In this document: one piece after another, positions 6,031 through 27,396 of the stretch
Layout of the letters: each line of letters starts with the position of its first letter
Numbering within the stretch: the first letter of the stretch is position 1
From: Streptomyces sp. BK208
GTDB taxonomy: Bacteria; Actinomycetota; Actinomycetes; Streptomycetales; Streptomycetaceae
Direction of reading: 5' to 3'
Assembly (NCBI RefSeq): GCF_004364245.1
Contig: NZ_SOAV01000013.1
Coordinates: forward strand, 62,001-126,000
DNA length: 64,000 nucleotides
Program-made: the position numbers and the translations under genes
Notes under the pieces: model-generated
What the model saw: only the letters and a program-made list of their open reading frames with translations
Databases searched by the model: none
Told to the model about the DNA's origin: nothing

Positions 6031-6045
6031 CGGGCGTCGAGCGGG

Positions 6046-11082: not shown

Positions 11083-11172
11083 GGCGATGACGGAGGCGAG
11101 GCCATCGTCGCAGACGGCTGTCCGCGATCGACCGGGACCTCGTCTTCCCGCCCCCGTCCGGCGCCGTGGGCG

Positions 11173-12918: not shown

Positions 12919-13139
12919 GACGGCATGCTGTCAGGGCATGCGGTGCCGTCGCAACAGGCGCCGGGGAGCGAGGCGCGCTCCGGAGGCGTCCTCCGGCACC
13001 GCGAGGCCTGCGGCGGCGCCGGTCCGTCACCGTTGTCCGCACTTCTCTCCCTATGCGCCTGGTGTGAAGAAGGTGGGCGGGACGGGAGATGATCCGCCCT
13101 CCTCGACGTGCGGTCGCCACGACCTGCGACAGTGGAGTG

Positions 13140-13943
13140 ATGAACATCGAGCGCAGGAACAACGTCAGGGTCACCGGCAACCCGCTCGGGCGCACGGTGG
13201 TGCTGGCCCACGGATTCGGTTGTGACCAGAACATGTGGCGGCTGACGGTGCCGGCCCTCGTCGAGGACTATCGGGTGGTCCTGTTCGACTACGTGGGGTC
13301 GGGCCGCTCCGACCTGTCCGCGTTCACGGCGGACCGCTACTCCTCCCTGGAGGGGTACGCGCGCGACGTGGCGGAGGTCTGTGAAGCACTGGACCTGCGC
13401 GACGCGGTGTTCGTGGGCCACTCGGTGAGCGCGATGATCGGTGTGATGGCGGCCGGACTGGCCCCGTCGCGGATCGGTGCCCTGGTGATGGTCGCGCCGT
13501 CCCCGCGCTACATCGACGACGAGGGTTACCGGGGCGGGTTCAGCGCCGAGGACATCGAGGAGCTGCTGGCCTCCCTGGAGTCGAACTACCTGGGGTGGTC
13601 GGCGACGATGGCGCCGGTCATCATGGGCAACGCCGACCGGCCGGAACTGGGCGAAGAGCTGAAGAACAGCTTCTGCGCCACCGACCCGGACATGGCGCGC
13701 GTCTTCGCCCGGACCACGTTCATGTCGGATTCGCGGGACGACCTGAAGGGCGTGAGCGTGCCGACCCTGGTGCTGGAGTGCACGCAGGACGTCATCGCAC
13801 CGCGGGAGGTGGGCGCCTTCGTGCACGGTGCCGTCCGGGGCTCGTCCCTGGTCACGCTGGACGCCACGGGACACTGCCCGCAGCTGTCCGCGCCCGAGGC
13901 CACCAACGCCGCGATCCTCGACTTCCTGGCGCGTGTGAAGTGA
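13140..13943 (+). CDS. rsbQ: RsbQ-like alpha/beta hydrolase
   Basis: A 267-residue alpha/beta hydrolase closely matching RsbQ, the partner RsbP needs to sense energy stress in Bacillus. Ser95 sits in VGHSVSAMIG, the acid is in ECTQDVIAP and the His in DATGHCPQ. The N-terminal RRNNVRVTG and LAHGFGCDQNMW are characteristic of the RsbQ/strigolactone-receptor branch. Its TGA overlaps the next ATG (TGATG) and the next gene is an RsbP-like PAS phosphatase, which makes the assignment firm. It presumably supplies or hydrolyses an unidentified small hydrophobic ligand for the PAS domain. GTG at 13137 is an alternative start. Confidence 0.88.
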   Translation: MNIERRNNVRVTGNPLGRTVVLAHGFGCDQNMWRLTVPALVEDYRVVLFDYVGSGRSDLSAFTADRYSSLEGYARDVAEVCEALDLRDAVFVGHSVSAMIGVMAAGLAPSRIGALVMVAPSPRYIDDEGYRGGFSAEDIEELLASLESNYLGWSATMAPVIMGNADRPELGEELKNSFCATDPDMARVFARTTFMSDSRDDLKGVSVPTLVLECTQDVIAPREVGAFVHGAVRGSSLVTLDATGHCPQLSAPEATNAAILDFLARVK

Positions 13944-15229
13944 TGTGCCGCACAGGGCAGCAACCCGAACCCTTCGAATCCGACAGCGGAGGGACGTCGG
14001 GAGAGGTCTTCGCCTCGCTGCTGGAGGACAGCGCCGACGACCTCTACGAGAGCGCGCCCTGTGGGTACCTGTCCACCCTGATGGACGGCACGATCGCCAA
14101 GATCAACAGCACGCTGCTGGGCTGGCTGGGCCTGGATCGGCAGAGTGTGGTGGGCCGGATGCGCTTCACCGACCTGCTGACCGTGGGCGGCAAGCTCTAC
14201 CACGAGACGCACTTCGCGCCGCTGCTGCGGATGCAGGGCGAGATCGGCGGTATCGCCCTGGAACTGAAGGGTGCCGACGGCAGCCGCATACCCGTGCTCG
14301 TCTCCTCCGCCGTCAAGCGCGGCACGACCGGCGAGCCCCTGCTGATCCGGACCACCGTGTTCGACGCGCGGGACCGCCGGGCCTACGAGGAGGAACTGCT
14401 GCGGGCCCGGAAGGCGGCGGAGGAGGCGCGCGAACAGGCAGAGGCGGACCGGGCCCGGCTCCAGGACGCCCTGGCCGTGCTCCAGCAGTCACTGCTTCCC
14501 GCCAGCCTGCCGTCCGTACCGGGGATGGAGTCGGCGGTGCACTACCGCACGGCCTCTCCCGATCGTCTCGGAGGCGACTTCTACGACCTCTTTCCGAGCG
14601 ACGGCGAGAGCTTCGCCTTCTTCCTCGGCGACGTCTGCGGGAAGGGACCCCAGGCCGCGGCAGTCACCTCGCTGACCCGCTACACCCTGCGTGCGGCCGC
14701 CCTGCACGATCCGGATCCCGTCGCCGCCCTGACCACCCTCAACAAGGTGCTCAACGAGCGGTACAACGGTGGGGACCCGCGCTACTGCACGGTCGTCTTC
14801 GGTCTCCTGGAGCCGGACCCGGAGGCCGGCACGGTCACCGTCCGCCTGGCCTCCGGCGGACACCCCTCCGCCCTGGTCCTCCGCGCCGACGGCACGGCCG
14901 AGTTCCTGCCGACGCCGGGCGGGCTGCTCGTCGGCGTCCTGCCCACGGCTTCCTTCACCGCAGCCACCACCGTCCTCGGCCCCGGGGACACCCTCCTGCT
15001 GTACACCGACGGTCTGACCGAGGCGCGGACCGGCGAGGACCGCACCAGCCTGTACGGCGAGGAGGCCCTGCTCGACTTCGCCGCCGGCCACGCCGGTGAG
15101 CCGCCGCACGCCGTGATCAAGGCGCTGACCGACCTGCTGGACGGCTTCGGGGACGGCCTCGACGACGACACGGCCCTGCTCGCCCTCGGTGTCCCCGCCG
15201 CCGGCCGCGAGGGTGACGACGCCGCATGA
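13943..15229 (+). CDS. rsbP: RsbP-like PAS-coiled coil-SpoIIE phosphatase
   Basis: A 428-residue protein with PAS at about residues 30-140 (APCGYLSTLMDGTIAKINSTLLGWLG), a coiled coil at about 147-185 rich in Glu/Ala/Arg, and a PP2C domain at about 195-420. Phosphatase motifs are LGGDFYD (Asp212, Asp215), LGDVCGKG (Asp230) and LDDDTALLAL near the end. This domain order is that of Bacillus RsbP. The start overlaps the rsbQ stop and the stop overlaps the STAS start (ATGA), so all three should be made together. Predicted role: on energy stress, with RsbQ bound, dephosphorylate the downstream STAS protein. Confidence 0.9.
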   Translation: MCRTGQQPEPFESDSGGTSGEVFASLLEDSADDLYESAPCGYLSTLMDGTIAKINSTLLGWLGLDRQSVVGRMRFTDLLTVGGKLYHETHFAPLLRMQGEIGGIALELKGADGSRIPVLVSSAVKRGTTGEPLLIRTTVFDARDRRAYEEELLRARKAAEEAREQAEADRARLQDALAVLQQSLLPASLPSVPGMESAVHYRTASPDRLGGDFYDLFPSDGESFAFFLGDVCGKGPQAAAVTSLTRYTLRAAALHDPDPVAALTTLNKVLNERYNGGDPRYCTVVFGLLEPDPEAGTVTVRLASGGHPSALVLRADGTAEFLPTPGGLLVGVLPTASFTAATTVLGPGDTLLLYTDGLTEARTGEDRTSLYGEEALLDFAAGHAGEPPHAVIKALTDLLDGFGDGLDDDTALLALGVPAAGREGDDAA

Positions 15230-15558
15230 GCCAGCTGGAGATCATCACGCGAGAGGCCGCCCCCGGGCCCGTTCTGGAACTGCTCGGCGACCTCGACTAC
15301 GACACCGCCGGCCGACTGCGGGCACTGCTCGCGACGCTTGCCCTGCGGCAGGGCAGCCGCCTGGTCCTGGACCTGGGGGGAGTGACGTTCTGCGACTCCA
15401 GCGGCATCACGGCGCTGATCGTCGCCCGCAACCACGCACTGGCCGCCCAGGCAGAGGTCGCGCTCGCCGACGTCCCCGACCACATCATGCGCGTGCTGCG
15501 CATCGTCGGCCTGGACCAGATCTTCCCCATCGAGCCCGGCAGCGCCGCCGCCATGTGA
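15226..15558 (+). CDS. STAS-domain anti-anti-sigma factor (RsbV-like)
   Basis: A 110-residue antagonist: VLELLGDLDYDTAGRL at the N-terminal strand, then TFCDSSGITAL as the acceptor loop (Ser58 or Ser59). The ATG overlaps the RsbP stop by four bases, completing a coupled RsbQ-RsbP-RsbV-like operon. In Bacillus rsbQP is separate from rsbV, so having the substrate in the same operon is a notable difference. Downstream of the stop lies a small inverted-repeat element. Confidence 0.9.
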   Translation: MSQLEIITREAAPGPVLELLGDLDYDTAGRLRALLATLALRQGSRLVLDLGGVTFCDSSGITALIVARNHALAAQAEVALADVPDHIMRVLRIVGLDQIFPIEPGSAAAM

Positions 15559-15604
15559 CCCCGGTCAGAGCGTGGCGCCCCGTGACGGGAGCGCCGCGCT
15601 GCCC

Positions 15605-15785
15605 CTAGGGGGTGTCGTTTGGATCTTGCCGCGGTCGCGGGGTCCGGCACGCGTATCTGCGGCGTTGTCGTCACTCGCCGACGCTCCGCGTCGACTCCCT
15701 CCTCCGCCTTGCAGCTGCACGCACCAGACCCCCCGCTCGGGTCGACGACAGGGACCGCCGGCCTGATCCGAACGACACCCCCTAG
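15605..15785. mobile_element. 181-bp inverted-repeat (MITE-like) element
   Basis: The left end (15605-15625) and right end (15765-15785) are 21-bp inverted repeats with one mismatch, each CTAG followed by GGGGTGTCGTTyGGATC on the inward strand. Between them is GC-rich DNA without a transposase frame. The size, ends and lack of coding point to a non-autonomous insertion, possibly with CTAG or TA as the duplicated target. From memory, similar sequences recur in streptomycete genomes. The right end supplies the stop codon of the neighbouring winged-helix gene. Confidence 0.7.
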
Positions 15786-16147
15786 CGCGCGCCGCTCGTC
15801 TCCGCGTGGCGGGAGAGGGTGGCGCCGTGCGACGGCCGTCCGCGATCGGTCTCGTCCTGTACGAGCAGGGACAGGAGCGAGGCCACGGTCAGGCCGGCTT
15901 CGGCGGGGTGGCGCAGCACCCTGTCCGGCTGGATGCGGTAGGTGTTGGTGCGGCCGTCGCGGGTGTGGGAGAGGTATCCGTCCTGTTCCAGGTCGGAGAT
16001 GATCCGCTGGACGGCGCGCTCGGTGAGCCGGCAGTGGGCGGCGATGTCGCGGATCCGGATGTTCGGATTGTCGGCGATGGCCGCCAGCACGCGGGCGTGG
16101 TTGGTGACGAACGTCCATCCGAAGTGAGAATCACGTACCTCTGCCAT
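15782..16147 (-). CDS. Winged-helix regulator, copy 1
   Basis: A 121-residue MarR/ArsR-like winged helix: NHARVLAAIADNPNIRIRDIAAHCRLTERAVQRIISDLEQDGYLSHTRDGRTNTYRI covers helix 1, the recognition helix and the wing, given here as one domain at about residues 15-75. It is nearly identical to the gene at 17121 over about 275 bases, but the last 18 residues differ. Its TAG stop lies inside the right terminal repeat of the element at 15605, so the tail may have been rewritten by insertion. TAGAAT seven bases before the ATG at 16147 fits a leaderless promoter and fixes the start. No Cys or His sensor cluster is visible. Confidence 0.8.
   Translation of the reverse strand: MAEVRDSHFGWTFVTNHARVLAAIADNPNIRIRDIAAHCRLTERAVQRIISDLEQDGYLSHTRDGRTNTYRIQPDRVLRHPAEAGLTVASLLSLLVQDETDRGRPSHGATLSRHAETSGAR
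15846..16120. repeat. Duplicated block, copy A
   Basis: This 275-base block is nearly identical, in the same orientation, to 17191-17465 with only a handful of differences. It contains the conserved part of the winged-helix gene. Flanking DNA on both sides differs between copies. Confidence 0.85.
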
Positions 16148-16222
16148 GTACGGCATTCTACTAATCATCCCAGTGGGAAAATAGCCGGTCCTCCGCGATG
16201 CCGGCAGGACCGGCTCCGCGTC

Positions 16223-16420
16223 TCAGGCGGCCCGCATGCGCCCGCGTCCACCGCGGCGCTGTCGCGGGCGCCGGGGGACCTGCGCTTCGTCGAGAGCGAG
16301 GTCCTCGCCGGCCTCGGGATCACAGGCGGGGGCCATGAAGAGGTTCTGCCACTGCGGCTTGGCGGGAGGCATCCCGCCGTCGGCCTGCTCTCCGCGGTGG
16401 ACCTGGGGGTGGTGCTGCAT
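16223..16420 (-). CDS. Small basic protein, unknown
   Basis: A 65-residue frame too short for most callers. The ATG at 16420 follows AAGGAACAAGGA on the reverse strand, a good ribosome site. The N-terminus is His/Gln-rich (MQHHPQVHRGEQ), the middle has PAKPQWQNLFMAP and an acidic run, and the last 17 residues are strongly Arg-rich (RRPRQRRGGRGRMRAA). The basic tail suggests nucleic acid or phosphate binding, but I recognise no family. It sits between the winged-helix gene and the DUF6328 gene in the same direction. Confidence 0.5.
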   Translation of the reverse strand: MQHHPQVHRGEQADGGMPPAKPQWQNLFMAPACDPEAGEDLALDEAQVPRRPRQRRGGRGRMRAA

Positions 16421-16473
16421 TCCTTGTTCCTTACTTCGCTGCTTCTTCGTGCTTGCGCTGCGCGCGGTTCCCG

Positions 16474-17028
16474 TCAACGGGCCGCACGGCGGGCGGACCG
16501 GTGGCGAAGCCACAGGGGCAGGGCGTACCAGGACAGCGCGAACCAGACCATCACGCCGCCGACGAGCAGTTTCGCCATGAACCCCGGCACCACGACGTGC
16601 AGGATCAGGAGCAGGGTGCAGCCGATGGTCACGGCCATCAGGAGCATCCCGCACATCATCAGCCGGTGTGCCACCTCGACCATCTCGTCCTTCATCCGCT
16701 GCCCCGAGAGGAAGCGGTGGATGGAGACCGGGGCGATCAGGCACGCGGTGGCCGTGGCGCCGGAGACGACGGTGGTGACGTAGACGGCGTGGTCGAAGGT
16801 GTCCAGGTCGTGGAAGAGGGGGGTGAAGGCGACGCTGAGCAGGAAGCCGAAGAGGATCTGGACTCCTGTCTGAGCGACGCGCGTCTCCTGCATGATCTCG
16901 TTCCAGCGGCGGTTGACCCGCTCGCGCGGCGTCTCCGGTGCTTCGTCCGCGGCCGTACCGCCGTGTCCTTCGCACGCGCAGCATCCGTCGGCCCTTGCCT
17001 CCGGTGTCTCGATCGACTCCGTCGTCAT
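16474..17028 (-). CDS. DUF6328 family membrane protein
   Basis: A 184-residue protein. The cytoplasmic N-terminus carries two close cysteines in DGCCACEGH, then the family signature ETRVAQTGVQILFGFLL at about residues 47-63 runs into the first span. Four hydrophobic segments follow (LLSVAFTPLF; VTTVVSGATATACLI; MMCGMLLMAVTIGCTLLL; LVGGVMVWFALSWYALP), ending in Arg-rich RHRSARRAAR. The role of DUF6328 is unknown. It lies between two near-identical winged-helix regulators in the same direction, making it the obvious candidate for their control. Confidence 0.8.
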   Translation of the reverse strand: MTTESIETPEARADGCCACEGHGGTAADEAPETPRERVNRRWNEIMQETRVAQTGVQILFGFLLSVAFTPLFHDLDTFDHAVYVTTVVSGATATACLIAPVSIHRFLSGQRMKDEMVEVAHRLMMCGMLLMAVTIGCTLLLILHVVVPGFMAKLLVGGVMVWFALSWYALPLWLRHRSARRAAR

Positions 17029-17120
17029 GTTCGTGTTCCCCCTCCCTTTGTGGACCGTTCATCTGCCCGTTGAAGCCGGTCGCATGCCGGACGCGGCGAC
17101 GATGGCCGGGAAAGAGGTGC

Positions 17121-17492
17121 CTACCGCCCGTCCGTCGCCTTGTCGCCGGTGCCGGTCTTCCACGCCGGTCTGCTCGTGGACCCTCCGCGGTCGGTCTCGT
17201 CCTGTACGAGCAGGGACAGGAGCGAGGCCACGGTCAGGCCGGCTTCGGCGGGGTGGCGCAGCACCCTGTCCGGCTGGATGCGGTAGGTGTTGGTGCGGCC
17301 GTCGCGGGTGTGGGACAGGTATCCGTCGTCTTCGAGGTCGGAGATGATCCGCTGGACGGCGCGCTCGGTGAGCCGGCAGTGGGCGGCGATGTCGCGGATC
17401 CGGATGTTCGGATTGTCCGCGATGGCCGCCAGCACGCGGGCGTGATTGGTGACGAACGTCCATCCGGGGCGAGCTTCGGGCACTTCAACCAT
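17121..17492 (-). CDS. Winged-helix regulator, copy 2
   Basis: A 123-residue paralogue of the gene at 15782. The DNA-binding core from WTFVTNHARVL to LLVQDETDRG differs at very few residues (for example EDDGY for EQDGY). The tail (GSTSRPAWKTGTGDKATDGR) is unrelated to copy 1. TAGAAT six bases before the ATG at 17492 matches the leaderless arrangement of copy 1, although the surrounding DNA differs, which suggests the -10 is functional. The identical recognition helix predicts that both copies bind the same sites. Confidence 0.82.
   Translation of the reverse strand: MVEVPEARPGWTFVTNHARVLAAIADNPNIRIRDIAAHCRLTERAVQRIISDLEDDGYLSHTRDGRTNTYRIQPDRVLRHPAEAGLTVASLLSLLVQDETDRGGSTSRPAWKTGTGDKATDGR
17191..17465. 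repeat. Duplicated block, copy B
   Basis: Direct near-identical copy of 15846-16120. The two blocks are about 1.07 kb apart and bracket the DUF6328 gene and the small basic ORF. Confidence 0.85.
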
Positions 17493-17514
17493 GCACGCAT
17501 TCTACGGACCGTCT

Positions 17515-17542
17515 TTGCGTGAACCCTGCTACATGACATACT
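17515..17542 (+). promoter_or_regulatory. Possible housekeeping-type promoter
   Basis: TTGCGT (17515-17520), a 16-base spacer and CATACT (17537-17542) lie about 48 bases upstream of the STAS gene at 17591, back to back with the leaderless -10 of the winged-helix gene. Confidence 0.35.
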
Positions 17543-17590
17543 TTTCGTGTAACGGATAACAGGACCTGTGTAGCGCGGGAGGGACCCGAA

Positions 17591-17974
17591 GTGTCTTTGC
17601 ATGAGGCGGTCACTGGGTGCACGGACGCTGCCGACGCGGGCCGGACACAGGACCTCGGCCAGGCTGCGGTGACGCAGTACGAGTGGGGCGGCGTCTGTGT
17701 CGTCGGTGCGAGCGGCTCGTACGATCTGTACTCGATCACCCCACTGTCGGAAGCCTTGGACGCGGCGGTGAGGGAGTACTCGAAGGTGGTGCTGGACGCC
17801 TCCGGCATCACCTTCGCCGACTCGACCCTCCTGAATCTGCTGATCCTCACCCAGCGATCCGTCGACCTCCGAGTGGCCGCGCCGACGCAGCAGTTGCGCC
17901 GCCTGCTCGACATCACCGGGGTCGACACGGTCCTCAAGGTGCGGGAGACGGTGCAGGAGGCCGTTACGTGTTGA
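17591..17974 (+). CDS. STAS-domain anti-anti-sigma factor
   Basis: A 127-residue STAS protein. About 25 N-terminal residues precede the fold, which shows VCVVGASGSYDLYSITPL, then the acceptor loop FADSTLLNLL (Ser78) and a C-terminal RLLDITGVDTVLKV helix typical of the family. The GTG start follows GGGAGG. It is divergent from winged-helix copy 2, so the regulator could control both directions. No phosphatase or kinase is directly coupled, so its partner is likely one of the neighbours acting in trans. Confidence 0.83.
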   Translation: MSLHEAVTGCTDAADAGRTQDLGQAAVTQYEWGGVCVVGASGSYDLYSITPLSEALDAAVREYSKVVLDASGITFADSTLLNLLILTQRSVDLRVAAPTQQLRRLLDITGVDTVLKVRETVQEAVTC

Positions 17975-18153
17975 GTCCCGCGGTCGTGACCGGGAGATCG
18001 GATTAGACCTTTCGGAGCGGGGCATTCGGGATTCTGTTCGACGCGGTCCCGCCCGAGTCGCGGGAGCCGCGGAATCGACGGAGACAGTCACCGCCTCGCG
18101 GTGCGGCGGCAGGCCGCCGCGCAGGCGGGATTCACCAGGGGAGAGGTAACACG

Positions 18154-18396
18154 ATGATCCTTCCGGCGGAGAAGGAACTGCGTGCGGTGCTGGCCCGGTT
18201 CGCCCACGCGCGCATGGAGCACGACGTGTGTCCCACCGGCCACACCAGCAGGGCACTCGAGGACGCCACCTACACGCTGTGTGTGATCACCGGAGCCCGC
18301 ACCGCCGAGGACGCCCTGGTCACCGCGGACGCCCTGCTCGAGCGGTACACCGACCGTACGAGCGTCTCCCAGGACGAGGAAACGCTGGCCGCCTAG
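18154..18396 (+). CDS. DUF5133 family small protein
   Basis: An 80-residue protein beginning MILPAEKELRAVLARFAHAR with a later YTLCVITGARTAEDALVTADALL, the pattern of DUF5133, an actinobacterial family of unknown function common in streptomycetes. A good ribosome site (GGGGAGAGG) precedes the ATG. There is no signal peptide or membrane span and the length is typical. It faces the STAS gene at 18584 tail to tail. Confidence 0.8.
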   Translation: MILPAEKELRAVLARFAHARMEHDVCPTGHTSRALEDATYTLCVITGARTAEDALVTADALLERYTDRTSVSQDEETLAA

Positions 18397-18583
18397 TCGC
18401 CGCGCGGGAGAACGGAGAGTTGGGCGTCACCCCACAGGTCACGCTCGGCTTTCGCTCCCCTCGGCGCCCGGTCGGCGGAGCGTGGAGGGTGTCCGGAACC
18501 GGGGCGGCGTCGCCGTCGTTGTCGAGCGCGGTCGGTCCGGGCGTCCGGTCGCCGAACGCACCCGCGGTGCGACCGGCCCCCGT

Positions 18584-18976
18584 TCACCGACCCTGCGTGT
18601 CGGCCGCCGCTGTCGGCTTCTGTGTGGCGTGCAAGTGCTCGTAGGTGCCGGTGAGTTCGAGCAGCCGCCGGAGCGCCGGGCCGATGTTGTCCAGGTGGAA
18701 GCCGATGCCGTCCTGGCCGGCCGTGCGGTGGATCTGCAGAAGCGTGGACAGCCCCATGGAGTCGACCGTTTCGAGCTCCCGGCAGTCGAGGCGCAGATGC
18801 TCCGTGCCCTCGTGCTCCCGCAGGGCCCGTCGCACCCGGTCGAGCAGGTCCTCACAGGTGTCGTAGTCCAAGTCACCGGTGAGAGCCATGCGTACGGTGT
18901 GCGGCGGGCAGGAGGTCGGCGACGGAACGTCGGATTCCGAGTCCGGAGTCGTAGTCACGGTGGTGTCCAGGGTCAC
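18584..18976 (-). CDS. STAS-domain anti-anti-sigma factor of the B12-sensor operon
   Basis: A 130-residue antagonist with VRMALTGDLDYDTCEDLL at the first strand and helix and TVDSMGLSTLL as the acceptor loop (Ser73). The N-terminal 25 residues are low-complexity Thr/Ser/Pro and the tail is also disordered. The GTG start lies three bases after the stop of the B12-binding gene, which itself overlaps the phosphatase, so the three form one operon. The likely cycle is that the phosphatase at 20083 dephosphorylates Ser73 under control of the B12 protein. The kinase is not in this operon. Confidence 0.87.
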   Translation of the reverse strand: MTLDTTVTTTPDSESDVPSPTSCPPHTVRMALTGDLDYDTCEDLLDRVRRALREHEGTEHLRLDCRELETVDSMGLSTLLQIHRTAGQDGIGFHLDNIGPALRRLLELTGTYEHLHATQKPTAAADTQGR

Positions 18977-18979
18977 GGG

Positions 18980-20086
18980 TCAGAGGCGGGCGGTGAGGGT
19001 GCTGCGTCCGGCGTCGATGAAGTCACGGGCGCGCGGGAAGTCGCGCAGCTGCTCCTCCAGCAGGTCGAGGGCGGGCGCGAGGGCGCGCGCGGGTACTCCT
19101 CGGGCGGTTAGGACGTCGGCGGTCCAGGCGATGAACTCGGTGAATATCTGGGGGGCGTCGACGTAGAGGGACGCGGTCAGGAAGTCGACGATGTGGGCCA
19201 GGTCCTCGGCGGTGCGTTCGCGCTGTTCGTCGGTGTAGTCGCGCATGAACGCGGAGCGCTCGCGCAGGGCGTGGAAGGTGTCGCGTACCAGTCGGGCGGA
19301 GGAGCGGGCGACCATGGTGTACTCCTGGTCGCCCAGGTGGGGCAGGTCGTCGATCACCTGGTGGGCCGGTGACGGCCTCGGGAGTGGGCCGGCGGCGAGC
19401 CTGTCTGCGGCCGCCCGCGCATCGGGTGCCCAGGCGTCCGCGCCCAGCAGGTGGGCGTAGCGGCCGTCGGCGCCGAAGGCGAGACCGCCCGTCATGACGG
19501 GTGCCCCGGCGGCCTGGACTGCGGTGATCGCGCGGTGGGCGAGCGGGAGACGGGTGGCCAGGGAACTGGACAGGCACACCGCGTCCGGACCGGTGCGGTG
19601 GATGTGGCCGATGAGATGCGCCGTGGGCACCTGCGCGCCGAGGTAGTCGACCTGCCACCCCCGCAGGCGCAGGGTCTCCGCCACCAGACGCGCCGGCAGC
19701 GCGTGCCACTCCTGGTCCACGCAGGCGACCACGATCCGACCGTGCGGTGTGCCGGTGCGGCGCACGGGCAGGACCGCGATCGCGCGGTCGTTGATGGCCG
19801 TGGCGGCGTGCTCGCCGGCCACGCTCAGGCGGTTGGCGGCCCATTCCACGCCCACCCTGCGCTGGACGGCCCCGATGACGTCCAGCAGCACCGTCTCGGG
19901 TTCCAGGCCCGCGCCGAGGGCGTCGTCGACGACGTCGAGGGCCGCGTAGCTGTCCCCGGCGAGCACGGTGGACCAGAGCCGGTCCACCCAGGGCGCGGCC
20001 TGCGCGTCGCGGTGGGGCGTGGTGGGGCGGGCGTCGACGCCGTGCTCGCCGGTTCGCTCGCCGACGTCGGTGATGCGGAGGGTCAT
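18980..20086 (-). CDS. Cobalamin-binding sensor protein (CarH-type Wx9EH motif)
   Basis: A 368-residue protein. Residues about 30-105 form the helical cap of B12 proteins and contain W82-x9-E92-H93, the signature of CarH/LitR/AerR light-sensing domains. The Rossmann-like B12 domain follows (about 115-235) with E126-W-H128 as the likely lower ligand site (the usual ExHxxG ends in Pro here). H93-to-H128 spacing is 35 residues, which from memory matches His142-His177 in Thermus CarH. There is no MerR DNA-binding domain. Instead a helical C-terminal domain (about 245-368) follows, which I cannot name. Overlap with the phosphatase (ATGA) and the STAS gene 3 bases downstream suggest it delivers a light or B12 signal to partner switching. 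Confidence 0.85.
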   Translation of the reverse strand: MTLRITDVGERTGEHGVDARPTTPHRDAQAAPWVDRLWSTVLAGDSYAALDVVDDALGAGLEPETVLLDVIGAVQRRVGVEWAANRLSVAGEHAATAINDRAIAVLPVRRTGTPHGRIVVACVDQEWHALPARLVAETLRLRGWQVDYLGAQVPTAHLIGHIHRTGPDAVCLSSSLATRLPLAHRAITAVQAAGAPVMTGGLAFGADGRYAHLLGADAWAPDARAAADRLAAGPLPRPSPAHQVIDDLPHLGDQEYTMVARSSARLVRDTFHALRERSAFMRDYTDEQRERTAEDLAHIVDFLTASLYVDAPQIFTEFIAWTADVLTARGVPARALAPALDLLEEQLRDFPRARDFIDAGRSTLTARL

Positions 20087-21702
20087 GCCGTGTACCTTCC
20101 CCGCGTCGTCCCGTCCACCGCACTGAGATGGGAGCCGCGAGGAGCGGTGATGGCCATGACGGCGATGTCGTCGTGGCGTCCGTCACCGAGCCACTGCGAG
20201 GTGACCATCTGGATCCGCTCGACGACGGCCTCGGCAGGCATGCCGACGCACTCGGCCGCGGCGCTCTTGAGGCGCTGGTCGCCGAAGAGGGTGTCACCCA
20301 GCGGCCCGCCTCTGGCTTCGGTGACTCCGTCGGTGAACAGCAGGCACGTGTCGCCCGGCGCGAGCCGCACGTGCGCGGTGTGGGCGCTGATGGCGGGCAG
20401 CACGCCGATCAGGCTTCCGTGGGTGTCGACCTCCTCCACGGTCCCGTTGCCGCGCAGGACGAGCGGTGGGGGATGGCCCGCGGCGGTGAGGCGGAGGACC
20501 ACGTCGCGTTCCTCGCGGCGGACCGAGGCCAGCACGAGGGTCGCGAAGCGGGTGTGGTGGCTGGTGCGCATCGCGTTGTTCAGCAGCCGCAGCATCCTCG
20601 TGTGGTCGTCGGCCATGGGGAGCAGGGCCTGCAGCGTGTTGCGGATCTTGCCGGTGAGCACGGCGGCTTCCAGCCCCTTGCCCGCCACGTCCCCGAGGAC
20701 GGCGAGGGTCTCGGGAAGGTCCTCGCCGGGCGGGTGGACGTCGTAGAAGTCACCGCCGACGCGTTCCGTGTCCTTGCTCGGCCGGTAGCCGCCCGCGAAG
20801 TCCACCCCCTCAAGCTGCCGCAGGGTGGGCGGCAGCAGTTCCCGCATGAGGGTGTCGGAGATCATGTTCTGCTCGGCGTAGAGACGGGCGGCCGACATGG
20901 CCGCGCCGGCCCGGGCGGCGAAGAGCCTGGCCAGCATCTCGTCCCCGTCGGTGAAGGCCGCCTCCTTGCCGCGGCGCAGAAGCACCAGCGCGCCCGCCGA
21001 CACGCCGTGGCCAGGCAGCGGGGTGACCGCCAGGGAGCCGACCTCTCCGAAGCCCTCGGGGACCAGCCACCGGGGCGCGGACGCGGGGTCTATCCACTGC
21101 GCGGGCACCGGCGGGAAACCGCGCAGGGCCTCGGTGAGACCGGGCACCGTGTCCGGGGACTCCACGACGGTGCGCCGGGAGACCTCGCCCCGGTGGTCGC
21201 AGAACACCAGCGGCAGCTTGCCGGTCGTGGTGGGGGAGACGACCAGCGCCGCGTCCGCCAGGTGCTGGGTGGACAGACGCGCCGTGACCTCCATGCAGCG
21301 GTCCAGATTCAGTGAGGACAGCAGCGCGGTGGACGCCTCGTTGAGGAACTGGGTCCGCGCCCGTTCCGCCTCCAGCTCCGTGCGGAGCGACTGGCGCTCC
21401 GTCTCGTCGACCAGCCACCACGCGGTCCGGTCCCCGGCCGCCGCCGACGGATGCGCGGAGAAGAACCGGTCACCGACCGGACCCCGCACGGACTCGGCCA
21501 GGGGGGCTCCGCTCGCTGCGGCGAGCCAGGCGGGGGACCGCAGCCGCCGCCCGTAACGGGCGGCAGGCAGGAGGCCGGAGGCCGCGGCATTGAGTTCCAC
21601 GACGTGCCCGTCTGCGCCTATGACCACCACCGGGTACGGGGCGGTGGCGGCGCTCACCGTGCTGGCAGCACCGGTGCGGGGGCGGGCGGGGGTAGAAGTC
21701 AT
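20083..21702 (-). CDS. PAS-GAF-SpoIIE protein serine phosphatase
   Basis: A 539-residue phosphatase. A PAS-like segment (about 20-100: PVVVIGADGHVVELNAAASGLL), a short linker helix, a GAF domain (about 115-295) and a SpoIIE domain (about 305-525). Metal-site motifs are VGGDFYDVH, VLGDVAGKGLEAAV and GRHDDIAVMAI, all with intact Asp. FTDGVTEARGG is also canonical. It is the first gene of a three-gene operon, overlapping the B12-binding protein by four bases. Neither the PAS nor the GAF contains a recognisable cofactor ligand, so the B12 protein is the best candidate for input. Confidence 0.9.
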   Translation of the reverse strand: MTSTPARPRTGAASTVSAATAPYPVVVIGADGHVVELNAAASGLLPAARYGRRLRSPAWLAAASGAPLAESVRGPVGDRFFSAHPSAAAGDRTAWWLVDETERQSLRTELEAERARTQFLNEASTALLSSLNLDRCMEVTARLSTQHLADAALVVSPTTTGKLPLVFCDHRGEVSRRTVVESPDTVPGLTEALRGFPPVPAQWIDPASAPRWLVPEGFGEVGSLAVTPLPGHGVSAGALVLLRRGKEAAFTDGDEMLARLFAARAGAAMSAARLYAEQNMISDTLMRELLPPTLRQLEGVDFAGGYRPSKDTERVGGDFYDVHPPGEDLPETLAVLGDVAGKGLEAAVLTGKIRNTLQALLPMADDHTRMLRLLNNAMRTSHHTRFATLVLASVRREERDVVLRLTAAGHPPPLVLRGNGTVEEVDTHGSLIGVLPAISAHTAHVRLAPGDTCLLFTDGVTEARGGPLGDTLFGDQRLKSAAAECVGMPAEAVVERIQMVTSQWLGDGRHDDIAVMAITAPRGSHLSAVDGTTRGRYTA

Positions 21703-21944
21703 GCAACGGGGCCCCTACGCGTGGACCCTCACCTCACTCAGCGAAGAAAACAGATGTCTAACGACAACAGTCCCGTAGTGCGGTGGTTTCGTGCAACCAC
21801 CGCAGTCACCCACATCCGTCACACCCGGCCGGGCGAGGGCGGAAAACCCTGGATTTCGCGGGGATTCCGGGCTGCCCGCACGACGGCGAACCCGCTCAGA
21901 CCTTCACGATCCGTCCACACTACGCGGGAAGGGCCGGCGGTGGG

Positions 21945-23117
21945 TCAGCGTCCCAGCCAGTCCAGGCAGACCACCAGGGCGTCGTCGACCGAGGACGACG
22001 GGCCGCGATGGCCGGACAGTTCACGCAGGACGGCACGCGGGACCTCCGCGGAGGGAAGCAGGCGGGTGGCCTGGATGGCGCGGCTCAGCGCGGCGTCGCC
22101 GTACGCCTCCCCCTCGGGCGAAGCCACTCCGTAGACGCCGTCGCTGACGAAGACGAGCCGGTCACCGGGCTCGGCCCGCATCTCCTGGTGCACGTAGTCG
22201 GTCTCCTCGAACATCCCCAGCGGCAGCTGCGCCTCCAACTCGACGCGCTCGACGACACCGTCGCGCAGCCGCAGCAGCCGAGGTGAGCCGGCGTCCACGA
22301 CGGACACACGCCCGGTGGCCAGCTCGAAGTCCAGCATCAGCACCGACAGGTAGCAGCGGCCCCGGTAGTGCGCGTACACGGCCTGGTCCGCGAGGGCGGC
22401 CTGGTCGGCCAGGGAGAGGCCGGCCCGGCGGGCGTTGCGCAGCGCGCTGATGGCCAGATTGGTCAGCAACGAGGCTTCTGTGCCCTCGCCCATGCCGTTG
22501 GTGACGTACAGCATCAGGCGGTCCGCGGTGGCGGACCAGTCGAAGTTGTCGCCGAAGATCGCGTAGGCGGGCTCCAGCTGGGCGCCCAGCTCGTACTCCG
22601 GCCGCACGCAGGAGCGGCCGGGCAGCAGCTGCCACTGCATCTCCGCGGCCAGCGTCAACCGGTCCCGGCGCCGCGCCTGCATGTACACGTCGGTCTCGCG
22701 CTCCGCCACGACGACCTCGTGTGCGAGCACCTGGGCGACGTCGGCCAGTTCGGCCAGGGCCCCTTCGGCCTGTTCGCCGTCGAGCAGCGTCACCGACAGC
22801 ACGCCGAGCCGGTCACCGCGCACCGTGACCGGAAGATGCTGGCGCACCAGGCCGTCGGGCAGCGCCTCGACGTGCGGTTCCTGGGTGGCGAAGGCGCGGC
22901 CCGCGGCACTGTCGTGCACGGGGACCGGTTCGGTGGTGTGCGGCAGCACGGACACCGGCTGCAGCACGGTCAGGCCGTAGTCGGCCATGAACAGGTCGAC
23001 CGACCGGGCCGCGTACTGCTCCGTCAGCACGTCGCGGACGGCGTCGAGCAATTCATGGGGCGCCGCCGTACGCAGAGCGCGTTCAGCGGCCACGAATCTG
23101 TTCACGAGGAAGAACAC
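21945..23117 (-). CDS. GAF-SpoIIE phosphatase-like protein with altered metal site
   Basis: About 390 residues. A GAF-like domain (about 20-140), a linker and a PP2C/SpoIIE fold (about 150-390). The first motif reads FGDNFDW, keeping both Asp. The second, normally GDV/DAMGxG, reads TNGMGEG with Asn at about residue 207 where the metal-binding Asp should be. The C-terminal Asp pair survives in SSVDDALVV. The protein may be weakly active or a non-catalytic binder. A TTG three bases earlier is also in frame; I use GTG at 23117 because AAGAGA lies just ahead. The 242 bases before the next gene on this strand suggest it is monocistronic. Confidence 0.82.
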   Translation of the reverse strand: MFFLVNRFVAAERALRTAAPHELLDAVRDVLTEQYAARSVDLFMADYGLTVLQPVSVLPHTTEPVPVHDSAAGRAFATQEPHVEALPDGLVRQHLPVTVRGDRLGVLSVTLLDGEQAEGALAELADVAQVLAHEVVVAERETDVYMQARRRDRLTLAAEMQWQLLPGRSCVRPEYELGAQLEPAYAIFGDNFDWSATADRLMLYVTNGMGEGTEASLLTNLAISALRNARRAGLSLADQAALADQAVYAHYRGRCYLSVLMLDFELATGRVSVVDAGSPRLLRLRDGVVERVELEAQLPLGMFEETDYVHQEMRAEPGDRLVFVSDGVYGVASPEGEAYGDAALSRAIQATRLLPSAEVPRAVLRELSGHRGPSSSVDDALVVCLDWLGR

Positions 23118-23278
23118 CAATCTCTTGCCGGGCCCCGTGCGGAGCCTCGTCGAATATGCGTGAGCCGAGTGTGCCGGATGCGCCGGGCGTGCCCGGTGTG
23201 TCGTCGCCGGTCAGCCGAGTCATCCGCCTGCCGCGGCGGCGCCTAGTAAGCTGACAGCGTCCCAGCGTCTGCGAGAGT

Positions 23279-23755
23279 GTGACCGTGACTGCTTCCCGTC
23301 CCAGCCCCGACGAGGTCGCACGCGTGACCTCCACGGCCGCGGAGCTGCTGGAAGTGGTCTGGGGCCGGGCTTCGACCGCGCCCGCCTCCGTCTCCCAGCT
23401 GCGCGTGCTGTTCATCCTCGAGCACCACGAGGGGATCAACCTGCGCACGCTCGCCGGTTCCCTCGCGTCCACGCCGCCGTCGACCAGCCGGTTGTGCGAC
23501 CGCCTGCAGGCTGCCGGCTTCGTCGAGCGCACGGTCAGCTCGACCAGCCGGCGAGAAGTGCGCCTCTACCTCAGCAAGAGGGGGCGTGCCTTCCTCGACG
23601 ACCTGCGGGAGCGAAGGGAGCGGGAGCTGCGAGCGGTGCTGGACCAGATGCCCGCCGCCAAGCGGACCGCCCTGCTGACCGGTCTTGAGGCCTTCTGCGA
23701 GACCGCCGCAAGCCAGCTCCACCACGACGCCGGCCCCGGAACCCGCTCCGCCTGA
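23279..23755 (+). CDS. MarR family transcriptional regulator
   Basis: A 158-residue MarR protein: LRVLFILEHHEGINLRTLAGSLASTPPSTSRLCDRL covers the DNA-binding helices and FVERTVSSTSRREVRLYLSKRG the wing, at about residues 40-105. The C-terminal helices (RERRERELRAVLDQMP) would form the dimer interface. The start is GTG at 23279. It is divergent from the SpoIIE-like gene at 21945 with about 160 bases between, and 400 bases upstream of the carotenoid oxygenase. Either could be its target, but no inverted repeat pins it down. Confidence 0.85.
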   Translation: MTVTASRPSPDEVARVTSTAAELLEVVWGRASTAPASVSQLRVLFILEHHEGINLRTLAGSLASTPPSTSRLCDRLQAAGFVERTVSSTSRREVRLYLSKRGRAFLDDLRERRERELRAVLDQMPAAKRTALLTGLEAFCETAASQLHHDAGPGTRSA

Positions 23756-24161
23756 ACCCCGCAGCGGAGCGGCACGGCTCCCGGCACCGCCCCGGCGGGA
23801 ACCGGCGCTCGACCCGGCCGCCCCCTCCACCGAGACATGCGGCGTCGTCCTCCCCATGGCCCCTCCCCTTGTTCCCTGCTCCTTCGCGAGCGTCGCCCCG
23901 GCTGTCTGTGCACCGCATACCCCGCTTGCCCGCGTCGAACGGAACCGTGGCGTTCATCTCGTACAGAACACCCAAACGTGCGTATAGCGCACGCCGCGCC
24001 CGGGCCGCGCGCACCACCGCGGGGGAGTGGGGTGGTGCCGGCACCACCGGTGATCCGGTGCCTGGGCCCCCTGCCTCGCGGGCGACCGCGGAGGAGGGTT
24101 GGTCCCGTCACCACGGACCCGGCCGGAGCACCGGGCACCGACAACGGAACGAGGGATCACG
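23756..24161. other. 406-base intergenic region
   Basis: No gene I can support. Open frames here lack ribosome sites or are shadows of the MarR gene. A TATAGC hexamer inside GTGCGTATAGCGCACG (23980-23995) forms a small dyad and is a possible -10 region or operator for the carotenoid oxygenase. The match is weak. Confidence 0.4.
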
Positions 24162-25679
24162 ATGGCCAGTCACACGCGGCGGAGAGTTCTCAAGGGCGCG
24201 GCGGTCGCGGCAGCGGGCGGTGTGGTGGGGAGTGGACTCGGGCCCGGGTCCGGCTTCTTCACTGCCGCGGCGCAGGCGAATCCCGTGGCGCCGAAGTGCG
24301 TCGAAACCGGGGAGACCCCGTTCCTGGAAGGGGCCTTCGCGCCGGTCACCGAGGAGCTGACCGCCTTCGGCCTGAACGTCGTCGGCCGTGTCCCGCGCGA
24401 CCTGGACGGCCGGTACCTGCGCAACGGCCCGAACGCGCTGGGTCTCGAGGACGTCCGCGCCCACCACTGGATGATCGGCGACGGGATGGTGCACGGAGTC
24501 CGGCTGCGCGGCGGGCGCGCGGAGTGGTACCGCAACCGCTGGGTGCGGTCGTCGCAGGTGAGGGCGAAACTGGGTGAGCCCGGGTCCGGGCATGCACCGC
24601 CGGACGACTTCGCCTGCAACACGCACGTGATCCCGTACAAGGGACGCATACTCGCGCTGCAGGAAGGCGGGCCACTGCCGTACGAGCTGGACGGCGAACT
24701 GGGCACCGTGCGCCCGTACGACTTCCGCGCCACGATCGAGGGCGCCTTCACGGCACACACCAAGTACGACGCGGCGGCCGACGAACTGCACGCGATCGCG
24801 TACTACCCCACCTGGGACCACGTGCGGCACATCGTGATCGACCGCACCGGCCGGGCGAGGGCCGCGCGGCGGGTCCCCGTCGCGGACGCGCCGATGATGC
24901 ACGACTTCGCCCTCACGGAGAAGTACGTGGTCATCGTGGACGTCCCGGTCACCTTCGACGGCGCCGCCGCCGAGGCGGGCGCGATCGTGCCGTACGTGTG
25001 GAACGACAGGCACCCCATGCGCATCGGGCTGCTGCCGCGCGCCGGCGGCACCACGCGCTGGTTCGAGATCGACCCGGTGTACTACTCGCACACCCTCAAC
25101 GCCTACGACCAGGGCGACACCGTCGTGGTGGAGTACACCGGATTCCCCGCCCCCTTCCACGCGGCCGGGCGCGGCCTGGGCGGACCCTCCGCCACCGGCT
25201 CCCCGACGCTCGACCGATGGACGATCGACCTGCGCGCGGACCGGGTCCGAGCCGCGCGGCTGGACGACCGGCCGCAGGAGTTCCCGCGTATCAACGAAGC
25301 CCTGGTCTCGCGTCGCCACCGCTACGCCTACACCGCGAGCGCGGCCGAGATGTGGCGCGCGTACGAGGCCGTCGACGGGGCGTGTCCGGACGACAAGTTC
25401 ACCAACTGTTTGGTGAAGCACGACATGGCACGGGGCAGCCGGCAGGTCCACCGCTTCCCGCGGGGTGCCGCGGCCAGCGAGCCGGTGTTCGTCCCGCGGC
25501 GCGGTGCGCGGGACGAGGACGACGGTTACGTCCTGTCGTACGTGAACGACCCCGACCGGGGTGCGACCGACCTGGTGATCCTCTCCGCACAGGACTTCAC
25601 AGGCCACCCACTGGCCCGCGTCCAGCTGCCCGGACGCGTTCCGCTGGGGTTCCACGGCAGCTGGATCCCGGACGCCTGA
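24162..25679 (+). CDS. Tat-exported carotenoid cleavage oxygenase family protein
   Basis: A 505-residue RPE65/carotenoid oxygenase family protein. The start has a twin-arginine signal, TRRRVLKGAAVAAAGG, then a mature region beginning near residue 40. The four Fe(II)-binding His are visible: H199 in TAHTKYD, H247 in MMHDFALT, H310 in YSHTLNAYD and H498 in GFHGSWIP close to the C-terminus. LRNGPNALG near residue 86 is also typical. The family cleaves double bonds in apocarotenoids or stilbenes using O2. Export across the membrane is unusual for carotenoid enzymes and might favour lignostilbene-like substrates. GAGGGA precedes the ATG. Confidence 0.9.
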   Translation: MASHTRRRVLKGAAVAAAGGVVGSGLGPGSGFFTAAAQANPVAPKCVETGETPFLEGAFAPVTEELTAFGLNVVGRVPRDLDGRYLRNGPNALGLEDVRAHHWMIGDGMVHGVRLRGGRAEWYRNRWVRSSQVRAKLGEPGSGHAPPDDFACNTHVIPYKGRILALQEGGPLPYELDGELGTVRPYDFRATIEGAFTAHTKYDAAADELHAIAYYPTWDHVRHIVIDRTGRARAARRVPVADAPMMHDFALTEKYVVIVDVPVTFDGAAAEAGAIVPYVWNDRHPMRIGLLPRAGGTTRWFEIDPVYYSHTLNAYDQGDTVVVEYTGFPAPFHAAGRGLGGPSATGSPTLDRWTIDLRADRVRAARLDDRPQEFPRINEALVSRRHRYAYTASAAEMWRAYEAVDGACPDDKFTNCLVKHDMARGSRQVHRFPRGAAASEPVFVPRRGARDEDDGYVLSYVNDPDRGATDLVILSAQDFTGHPLARVQLPGRVPLGFHGSWIPDA

Positions 25680-25686
25680 GGCCTTT

Positions 25687-25738
25687 GGCCGCCCGGGAGC
25701 CCCGGCGGGTCGTCGCGCGAGCACCCGCCGCGGCGGCC
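25687..25738. terminator. Nested hairpin between convergent genes
   Basis: CGGCGGGT (25703-25710) pairs with ACCCGCCG (25723-25730), and GGCCGCC (25687-25693) with GGCGGCC (25732-25738). The structure sits between the oxygenase and the VOC gene and could serve both. Confidence 0.6.
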
Positions 25739-25743
25739 GGCCT

Positions 25744-26187
25744 TCAGCCGAGCTGCTCGGCGAGTCCGACGACGATGTTCTCGGGGCCGCGGACGTAACA
25801 GAGCCGGTAGACGTTCTCGTACTGCACGATCTCACCGACGAGTTCGGCCCCGCCGCGGTCCCGCAGCCGGGCCACGACGTCATCGACGTCGTCGACGGCG
25901 AACATGACCCGACGAAGGCCGAGGGTGTTCGCCGGTGCGTCGTGCGGCTCGGGAACGACGGCCTCCGGGCGGTGGAACTTCGCCAGCTCCACCCGGCCCT
26001 GACCACCCGGGACCCGCAGCATGGCCACGTCCTGCCGGACGTCGCGGAGGCCGATGACCAGCTCCGCACCGGGCCATTCGAGCGGTCCCCTGCCCTCCAG
26101 CTCCAGGCCCAGCTCGACGAAGAACGCGATGACGGAGTCGAGGTCGTCGACGACGATGAGGACGTTGTCCAACCGCTGGACGGTCAT
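25744..26187 (-). CDS. VOC (glyoxalase/dioxygenase fold) protein
   Basis: A 147-residue protein with two beta-alpha-beta-beta-beta units: RLDNVLIVVDDLDSVIAFFVELGLELEG at the start and RVMFAVDDVDDVVARLRDRGGAELVGEI in the second half, ending YVRGPENIVVGLAEQL. The conserved final Glu ligand is present in the PEN segment, while the first-unit His is replaced by Asn (DNVLIV), as in several VOC subfamilies that act as resistance proteins or unknown lyases. GGAGGCTCC lies on the reverse strand just before the ATG. The function is not predictable beyond the fold. Confidence 0.85.
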   Translation of the reverse strand: MTVQRLDNVLIVVDDLDSVIAFFVELGLELEGRGPLEWPGAELVIGLRDVRQDVAMLRVPGGQGRVELAKFHRPEAVVPEPHDAPANTLGLRRVMFAVDDVDDVVARLRDRGGAELVGEIVQYENVYRLCYVRGPENIVVGLAEQLG

Positions 26188-26412
26188 GGGGAGCCTCCTT
26201 CGAGTGACGCGGTCACCGTAGCGTGTGCCGGAGCCGCTCGTCGGCCGCCGCGGGACGCAGACCCCGACACGCCGCAGCCGTACCGACGCCGCGCCGGACC
26301 GGCGCCCGTGACGCGGTGCCGGACCGCCGAAGTCGACCCGCGCCGCGTCCCGGACAACTGGCTGCAGGACCGGCCCGTGCCGTGCTCCTGGCCGCAGGCC
26401 GCCGATCCCGCT

Positions 26413-27396
26413 TCAGGCGTAGCGCGCGAAAAGCGCCTGGAGGTACCCCTCCAGCCGCCTGGTCAGCAGGGCGGGGGTCAGATCGGTACGGCCCACCTCG
26501 CGCCACGGGACGGCGACCTTCTCGGCGTCCGGAGCGAAGGCCAAGGCGTCCAGCAGACGCCAGTAGAGATGAGAGGCGTGATCTTCAGCCAGCGTCCCTC
26601 CCGCCGCAACGTAGAGGTCGGCGAACCGCATGCCCGCGGAGACCCCGTGCAGCAGGGCGAGGGCCGTCGAGCAGTGGGCCACGTCCAGGTCGGCCGGTCC
26701 CCACGAGGTCTCCACCCAGTCGACGACGCCGCTGATCCGCAGCCCGTCTACGTCGCCTGTGAAGAGGACATTGCCGGGATGGAAGTCCCGGTGCAGGAAG
26801 CAGGCCGGGTACTCCGGGGGCTCGCGGCGGATCACGTCCACGGCCCATTGCCACAGCTCAGGCCGCTCGGTGTCTTCGGGCGGGCTCACCCGCTCGGGAG
26901 ATGCCCACGCCTGGTACGCGCGCGGCCGTGTCTGGGCGGTCACCGACACCCGGTGGATACGCAGCAATTGGCGGGCCAGCAGTTCGGCACGCCGACCGGC
27001 TCCCTCGTCGCTCAGGCGCACGGCCCCGGGCAACAGGGACATCAGCAAGGAGGGGTGATCGCAGTACTGCGCTGTGGCGTCCACGGCCACCAGCGCGGCC
27101 GCGGGTACGTCCGTGCTGCCGAGCAGACGCAGGATGGCTGCCTCGCGGTTCAGCAGGCCCTCCGCGTGGCGAACGTAGAAGGGTTTGACGAAAGAACGCA
27201 GGACCAGCGACCGTCGACCGTCCCGCCCGCAGATGTCCAGACGGCGCATCTCCGACGTCCAGCCGCCACGCAACCGTGCAACATCCTCGATGCGTTCTTC
27301 CTCGGCCAGCCCCTTCTCCACCCAGGCGCGCGTCACATCCCAGCTCTGGCCCTCGCGATCGACACCGACGTGCTCAGTTCCCTCGCCCGCAACCAT
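26413..27396 (-). CDS. APH-fold phosphotransferase
   Basis: A 327-residue protein of the aminoglycoside phosphotransferase/choline kinase fold. The Brenner motif is LHRDFHPGNVLF (catalytic Asp in HRD, metal Asn in GN) at about residues 208-219, followed by GVVDWVETSWGPADLDVAHC, which supplies the DxD-type metal Asp. The N-lobe Lys is probably in VLRSFVKPF. True resistance enzymes and many phosphorylating housekeeping enzymes share this pattern, so the substrate is open. It is divergent from the ABC-F gene, with about 250 bases between, and such pairing with another resistance-type gene is suggestive only. Confidence 0.8.
   Translation of the reverse strand: MVAGEGTEHVGVDREGQSWDVTRAWVEKGLAEEERIEDVARLRGGWTSEMRRLDICGRDGRRSLVLRSFVKPFYVRHAEGLLNREAAILRLLGSTDVPAAALVAVDATAQYCDHPSLLMSLLPGAVRLSDEGAGRRAELLARQLLRIHRVSVTAQTRPRAYQAWASPERVSPPEDTERPELWQWAVDVIRREPPEYPACFLHRDFHPGNVLFTGDVDGLRISGVVDWVETSWGPADLDVAHCSTALALLHGVSAGMRFADLYVAAGGTLAEDHASHLYWRLLDALAFAPDAEKVAVPWREVGRTDLTPALLTRRLEGYLQALFARYA

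Follow-up and report, generated by a model that had tools for sequence, protein, structure and literature searches.

What does a B12-binding sensor act on when it has no DNA-binding domain and is encoded between a protein phosphatase and an anti-anti-sigma protein? The question is raised by a three-gene operon in a 64,000-nucleotide stretch of Streptomyces sp. BK208, called the window below. The genome measures 7.7 Mb and is assembled in 33 contigs, with the operon on contig C13; the closest relatives that carry a name are Streptomyces. The operon is read from the minus strand and encodes, head to tail, a SpoIIE/PP2C-type serine phosphatase of 539 amino acids (21702-20083; PF07228, 140.9 bits), a B12 protein of 368 amino acids (20086-18980; Pfam B12-binding 65.7 bits, B12-binding_2 49.8 bits) and a STAS anti-anti-sigma protein of 130 amino acids with a GTG start (18976-18584; STAS_2, 63.8 bits). 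The first two genes overlap by 4 bases and 3 bases lie between the second and the third, with coordinates, strands and spacings as the initial annotation had given them. By its sequence, the B12 protein is a stand-alone photocobilin, i.e., a receptor using B12 plus biliverdin, and not a CarH minus its DNA-binding domain. We think it rather probable that the operon is a light-input partner switch, in which the signal passes from the photocobilin to SpoIIE, on to STAS and finally to a sigma factor. A light-controlled partner switch had already been proposed in the initial annotation and is still the best reading, now joined by a carotenoid linkage in some relatives, while the CarH type and the novelty claimed for the route did not hold.

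The B12 protein as a photocobilin

When all PDB sequences were searched, the best matches of the B12 protein were 8j2w (274.8 bits) and 8j2x (274.6 bits), over query residues 35-368, and 8j2y scored 141.9 bits. These are the photocobilins SasPcob (PDB 8J2W/8J2X) and AbDPcob (8J2Y), which bind adenosylcobalamin and biliverdin (PMC10979010). The B12 protein is identical to SasPcob at 155 of 329 aligned residues (47%). The alignment to 8j2w also shows that each of the seven chromophore residues of SasPcob that we checked is retained: W61, E71, H72, H108, H137, D270 and W296 correspond to W82, E92, H93, H128, H157, D295 and W321. Among the 99 rows of our conservation alignment (the query plus 98, two of them identical and fragments included), they are kept in 97, 95, 95, 96, 94, 97 and 96 rows, respectively. 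PF02607 and PF02310 match the B12-binding four-helix bundle and Rossmann domain, in which the Trp, the Glu-His and the lower axial His are present.

The C-terminus, which the initial annotation had left as helical and unassigned, aligns with the biliverdin-binding globin domain of the solved photocobilins. D295 and W321 fall on the bilin residues Asp270 and Trp296 of SasPcob, and judged from this alignment the C-terminus is a bilin-binding globin domain; the sensor should therefore respond to red as well as to green light. Biliverdin usually comes from heme oxygenase, for which the genome holds one gene (237.9 bits). In SasPcob, Asp270 is the main bilin contact, and AbPcob, a poor bilin binder, has His at this place (PMC10979010). 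The E/DxH motif described in the same article is also present in the B12 protein.

Could the protein instead be a CarH-type bis-His photoswitch that has lost its DNA-binding domain? The residues that suggested so, W82-x9-E92-H93 and H128, are indeed there, and W-x9-EH with the His ligand is common to both families. Kinship with CarH does not follow, as CarH-type PDB chains reached 33-36 bits, over the B12 part of the protein only, against 274.8 bits over residues 35-368 for the photocobilin, and the NCBIfam CarH model gave 52.6 bits with a cut-off of 400. No MerR-type DNA-binding domain was matched with Pfam, in line with its absence in the initial annotation. Furthermore, Ala83 follows the Trp at what is presumably the position of the second His of CarH's bis-His light state. 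No row of the alignment has His here (90 Ala, 4 gaps, 2 Glu, 2 Gln and 1 Val). We hence regard a CarH-type switch as very improbable. Ala83 itself had been correctly read, and it is no longer a puzzle, because SasPcob has Gln at this position and a light state with water or hydroxide as the ligand, in place of the bis-His rearrangement of CarH (PMC10979010).

Conservation of the SpoIIE-photocobilin pair

The three-gene order, which the initial annotation had suggested looking for in other genomes, recurs. Our first locus set (n = 81) comprised the 80 best of 262 relatives, with one genome per species, and the window; counts out of 80 refer to its named genome contigs, with the window left out. 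By profile, 78 of the 81 loci have SpoIIE immediately before the photocobilin and 65 have STAS immediately after it, and in 74 the SpoIIE stop codon overlaps an in-frame photocobilin start ([A/G/T]TGA). With this recurrence, the operon is not a chance arrangement. Counts from the gene caller were lower (SpoIIE 75, STAS 57, both 55 of 81), and the profile-based ones are used here. Each of the three SpoIIE misses has its own circumstances: in L008 no SpoIIE was seen in the 882 bases between match and contig end, in L044 photocobilin residues 116-366 only were matched, and in L065 an 807-bit SpoIIE match overlaps and fails the position rule. Nineteen loci are not titled Streptomyces (10 other genera, plus one [Kitasatospora]); SpoIIE is found in 19 of these, the overlap in 18 and STAS in 17.

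A second draw covered 296 genomes of the class, of which 47, in 21 of 114 genera, had a match at E up to 1e-20. We examined 28 further loci from among the better matches of this draw; 9 belong to the genus of the window, and L142 coincides with L069 of the first set. A same-strand SpoIIE gene precedes the photocobilin gene in 28 of 28, and STAS was found within 1.5 kb downstream in 19. As SpoIIE stands upstream in 78 of 81 and 28 of 28 loci, it is the core partner of the photocobilin, and STAS is a frequent, not a fixed one. Two photocobilin genes in tandem behind one SpoIIE gene were seen in G211 and G067 (L156, L157).

The pairing bears on the possibility that the photocobilin acts elsewhere, e.g., on a diguanylate cyclase (DGC) or a transcription regulator, and that the operon merely couples expression. 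In favor of this, the light state of holo SasPcob is able to switch on a foreign DGC in vitro (PMC10979010), and other candidate partners are found nearby: 28 of 80 loci have a MarR gene and 20 of 80 have a second SpoIIE gene. SpoIIE is nevertheless the one near-constant neighbor, with overlapping codons in several genera, and for this reason we favor a direct SpoIIE-photocobilin complex and consider action elsewhere unlikely. Photocobilins are known to alter DGC activity through protein contact in a light-dependent manner (PMC10979010, section 8). In the window, the second SpoIIE phosphatase (391 amino acids; 21945-23120, minus strand; PF07228, 124.6 bits) is the upstream neighbor of the operon and the MarR gene lies at 23324-23752; the second SpoIIE gene accompanies MarR in 19 of its 28 loci.

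Carotenoid genes and LitR

Of the 80 loci, 13 have at least two carotenoid (crt) gene families at a distance of up to about 8 kb, and L077 has one crt-like gene at a contig edge. In L047, profiles matched lycopene cyclase (crtY, 359.7 bits), the phytoene desaturase family (crtI, 590.2 bits), squalene/phytoene synthase (crtB, 241.7 bits) and the adenosylcobinamide amidohydrolase CbiZ (174.4 bits); crt genes in other loci were assigned by homology to this and similar clusters. On the photocobilin tree, built with a quick method, crt linkage requires 4 changes, all forced by starred branches, and the linked loci fall into three distinct parts of it, the first being a clade of ten (L042 and the L047 group), the second L060 with L065 (beside L077) and the third L041. 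By our rough estimate, about 0.3% of 17-kb stretches would meet the crt cluster by chance if an 8-Mb genome has one such cluster. The linkage in some relatives supports a light-controlled switch.

The same loci carry evidence for a different reading, in which the photocobilin informs the phosphatase of the status of adenosylcobalamin, bilin or heme, and light plays only an incidental part. A gene for CbiZ, a corrinoid-salvage enzyme, lies upstream of SpoIIE in nine of 80 loci (L047, L049, L050, L051, L053, L062, L063, L068 and L079). Adenosylcobalamin tightens biliverdin binding of SasPcob about tenfold, and without biliverdin its dark and light effects on a DGC were reversed (PMC10979010). 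The nine CbiZ cases, however, are one clade, which is crt-linked (no STAS was found downstream in 7 of 9), there is hardly any variation at the bilin Asp and in the adenosyl-pocket residues, and the carotenoid linkage fits light better. A cofactor or redox sensor thus seems rather unlikely, although somewhat less so than a target outside the operon.

In S. griseus NCTC13033 (L041), the gene order is second SpoIIE, SpoIIE, photocobilin, STAS, MarR, a SigB/F/G gene in reverse orientation, crtY, a crtT-like methyltransferase and a crtU-like desaturase. The SigB/F/G gene (281.8 bits), placed between operon and crtY, is probably CrtS. Lee, Ohnishi and Horinouchi in 2001 reportedly found a sigma-B-like factor responsible for carotenoids in S. 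griseus. PMC5993118 cites that S. griseus study for the copy-number activation of a cryptic carotenoid cluster. No statement on a carotenoid link of the photocobilin operon was found in the literature searched, mostly without subscription journals.

Strong crtY matches occur in 13 of 61 genomes, i.e., the window's and 60 relatives. Within about 10 kb of these, we found a LitR-like gene in three (G021, G026, G034), a photocobilin in two (G016, G027) and both in none, the LitR-like gene being recognized by its similarity to a protein with a profiled B12 part and a MerR-type start that was read by eye. Only G016 is fresh evidence, because G027 is close to the L047 group. Seven of the 13 crtY genomes have a photocobilin somewhere (G000, G003, G016, G020, G027, G029, G034); in the window's genome (G000), crtY, the photocobilin gene and the LitR-like gene each lie on a different contig. 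A broader model would be that the actinobacterial stand-alone photocobilin targets its SpoIIE as a two-color switch (B12 and bilin) driving a SigB-type sigma factor, and that in lines like S. griseus NCTC13033 it replaces LitR beside the carotenoid cluster, with the sigma factor next to crtY as the output. If it holds, this model would answer both what stand-alone photocobilins do and which signal controls the sigma-B-like carotenoid regulator of S. griseus. We put it forward tentatively, as a possibility that we would not yet bet on.

Near the operon, a gene resembling carotenoid cleavage dioxygenases is found at 24285-25676 on the plus strand (RPE65, 367.4 bits; NF052295, 452.6 bits, under the cut-off of 675). 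Such a gene was not found in the examined flanks of any of the 80 loci, and we rejected it as part of the system.

The phosphatase and the STAS protein

The SpoIIE metal-site columns GDFY, GDV, DG and DD are invariant among 47 sequences. An AlphaFold2 model built from these 47 sequences had a mean predicted local distance difference test score of 84.3 and a predicted template modeling score of 0.50. Its secondary structure suggests a PAS-like region (about 20-100), a GAF-like region (about 101-250), a long helix (252-288) and then the PP2C domain; a GAF profile match scored 18.3 bits, under its cut-off. The domain order is reasonably clear, unlike the placement of the domains relative to each other. 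For the PP2C part, the best fold matches were 3pu9, Rv1364c (3ke6) and RssB (3f79), and the profile matched Rv1364c with 56 bits; phytochrome chains were also matched, at low template modeling scores.

Ser73 of the STAS protein, named as phosphoacceptor in the initial annotation, lies within V-D-S-M-G and by its position is the putative phosphoacceptor. Among 65 linked STAS proteins, 51 have DSxG, 7 DCxG and 1 DATG, and 6 are without a clear motif. A conserved C-terminal SpoIIE tail was considered as a docking peptide and rejected: the strict pattern fits 34 of 76 linked SpoIIE proteins, and the tail is not used as evidence because its TRGR part coincides, by eye, with the presumed ribosome site of the next gene.

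Candidate kinase and sigma factor

If the operon feeds a partner switch, a HATPase anti-sigma kinase would be expected in its surroundings. In 29 of 80 loci, an HATPase_c_2 gene is found at a distance of up to 4.5 kb, nine of the 29 being a single clade, compared with about 7 expected by a rough estimate from 72 above-cut-off matches in the 7.7 Mb genome. In Amycolatopsis (L028), STAS, HATPase, SpoIIE and photocobilin genes form one run. Directly beside the operon, the window contains neither an HATPase anti-sigma kinase nor a sigma factor gene.

At a distance of 14 kb, the window encodes a candidate pair (3156-4624), comprising an HATPase_c_2 protein (3156-3644, plus strand; PF13581, 33.8 bits) and a SigB/F/G-type sigma factor (3683-4624, plus strand; Sigma70 regions 2, 3 and 4). 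This sigma factor groups (branch 96*) with operon-near sigma genes of L012, L031, L042 and L073, and also with a near copy, L119, which is on contig C1 and not near the operon. Since the genome has 89 HATPase_c_2 matches, the sigma factor with its HATPase partner is a weak candidate for the operon's output in this strain, a lead and not an assignment. The two sigma copies are nearly identical, and on their different contigs each has an HATPase match close upstream.

The region 3156-23120 as a whole is an island rich in partner-switch parts, with several SpoIIE genes and the HATPase-sigma pair. It also includes a hybrid kinase-SpoIIE-HATPase protein of 1370 amino acids (6847-10956) and, by profile, four STAS genes (6533-6844, 15226-15555, 17669-17971 and 18584-18976).

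The leader of the SpoIIE gene

Upstream of the operon, on the minus strand, the leader (21709-21735) has a ribosome site GAGGTG at 21735-21730 and a hairpin at about 21728-21709, followed by the ATG at 21702. In relatives, too, GAGGTG or close variants stand 27-38 bases before the SpoIIE start codon, with a stable hairpin in between. A hairpin of -8 kcal/mol or better is present in 49 of 76 photocobilin-linked SpoIIE genes versus 52 of the 1171 other genes in these loci. Both counts follow one rule, which lets the start codon vary, and some photocobilin genes themselves are among the 52. In 24 related rows, chosen from 58 leaders for similar spacing with other hairpin-bearing leaders left out and with the window's row shifted by one gap, 97.2% of cells are paired. 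Sliding the partners gave 60.5% or less and shuffling the letters 93.7%, and none of 500 shuffles reached 97.2%. One of nine pairs changes on both sides, in 9 rows (8 A-U and 1 U-G for G-C), and this count of covarying pairs is no more than shuffles give (385 of 500). The leader helix is thus well kept and its covariation thin; any role in translation is putative. Rfam gave no match at E up to 1 over window positions 17000-27000.

Two dyads at 21780-21803 and 21753-21768 (minus strand), seen in the sequence upstream of the leader, may be an operator. By eye, TTGCC...GGCAA dyads precede the SpoIIE leader in many relatives, possibly as a repressor site. With a SigB-type promoter consensus, 7 of 76 loci had a match upstream of SpoIIE (shuffle mean 1.54, maximum 6); 6 of the 7 come from one clade, and we therefore do not claim such a promoter.

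A proposed light-input partner switch

The switch that we favor would work as follows. The photocobilin would bind adenosylcobalamin and probably biliverdin, and light would break the Co-C bond and turn the dimer into a monomer, as shown for SasPcob, whose light state is monomeric (PMC10979010). In one of the two light states, the photocobilin would contact its co-translated SpoIIE and change its activity. SpoIIE would, as its family suggests, dephosphorylate STAS at Ser73, and dephosphorylated STAS may then free a SigB/F-type sigma factor from an HATPase anti-sigma kinase. Carotenoid genes are probably part of the output in some relatives. As carotenoids protect against light, our guess is that light raises rather than lowers phosphatase activity.

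Several observations weigh against this switch. A SigB/F/G gene is in the locus in only 6 of 80 cases, modestly above a rough expectation of about 2 derived from 11 strong paralogues in the 7.7 Mb genome. In 16 of 81 loci, including 8 with crt linkage, no STAS was found directly downstream, and the substrate can hence not always be an adjacent STAS. A single clade supplies ten of the 13 crt-linked loci, and another record under the name S. griseus (L080) has no crt linkage. In the genome studied here the operon is on C13 and crtY on contig C16, hence they are not adjacent, and a LitR-like B12 regulator is encoded in addition. From the published photocobilin light signature GxxW, EH, GxxH and GxxxP (PMC11796333), the B12 protein has, by eye, GVEW, EH and GAQVP, and GxxH reads QEWH; this QxxH variant (Q125) has its Q in 15 of 99 rows. 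Finally, no light, cofactor or phosphatase experiment on the operon was found in the literature searched, with the journal coverage given above.

The initial annotation knew of no description of a route from such a sensor to a phosphatase and a sigma factor. The link to SpoIIE and STAS had in fact been printed as a prediction: SasPcob "potentially interacts" with STAS, SpoIIE and PP2C-like phosphatases (PMC10979010, section 9). Already known are thus the photocobilin family, the predicted STAS/SpoIIE link in Saccharothrix and flavin-based light input to partner switches. The near-constancy of SpoIIE, the codon overlap, the carotenoid linkage, the S. griseus sigma gene next to crtY and the leader hairpin go beyond the main text of PMC10979010, to whose authors the function of stand-alone photocobilins "is less clear". 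With the near-constant SpoIIE, the partner-switch genes and the carotenoid linkage, this function becomes testable with named genes. If the proposal is true, B12 and bilin photochemistry would be joined in one chain to a serine phosphatase that controls a sigma factor. Such a chain would be the green/red equivalent of the YtvA route, which is flavin-based, and possibly a tool for light-controlled gene expression in Streptomyces.

Comparison with known systems

The closest known protein is SasPcob of Saccharothrix syringae (8J2W dark, 8J2X light), which the B12 protein resembles in the match over 35-368, the seven contacts kept and the predicted STAS/SpoIIE partners. They differ in sequence (47% identity), in Ala83 and Q125 where SasPcob has Gln and Gly, and in that the photochemistry is here a prediction. 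AbDPcob (8J2Y) shares the sensor domains, and its light response activates its attached diguanylate cyclase; in contrast, the output in the window is a separate SpoIIE and no fused cyclase, and Asp295 is kept where AbPcob has His. CarH and LitR have the B12 domain and the W-EH motif in common with the B12 protein, which in contrast to them lacks a MerR DNA-binding domain and features a globin domain.

Light also enters a partner switch through YtvA (LOV-STAS), which acts on sigma-B in Bacillus, and through flavin sensors with SpoIIE phosphatase domains (PMC4844311). Unlike these flavin-based systems, the operon would use B12 and bilin in a separate protein. RsbU-RsbW-RsbV switches of the Rv1364c type have the same PP2C fold (3ke6) and STAS/HATPase logic, whereas here the parts are separate proteins to which a light sensor has been added.

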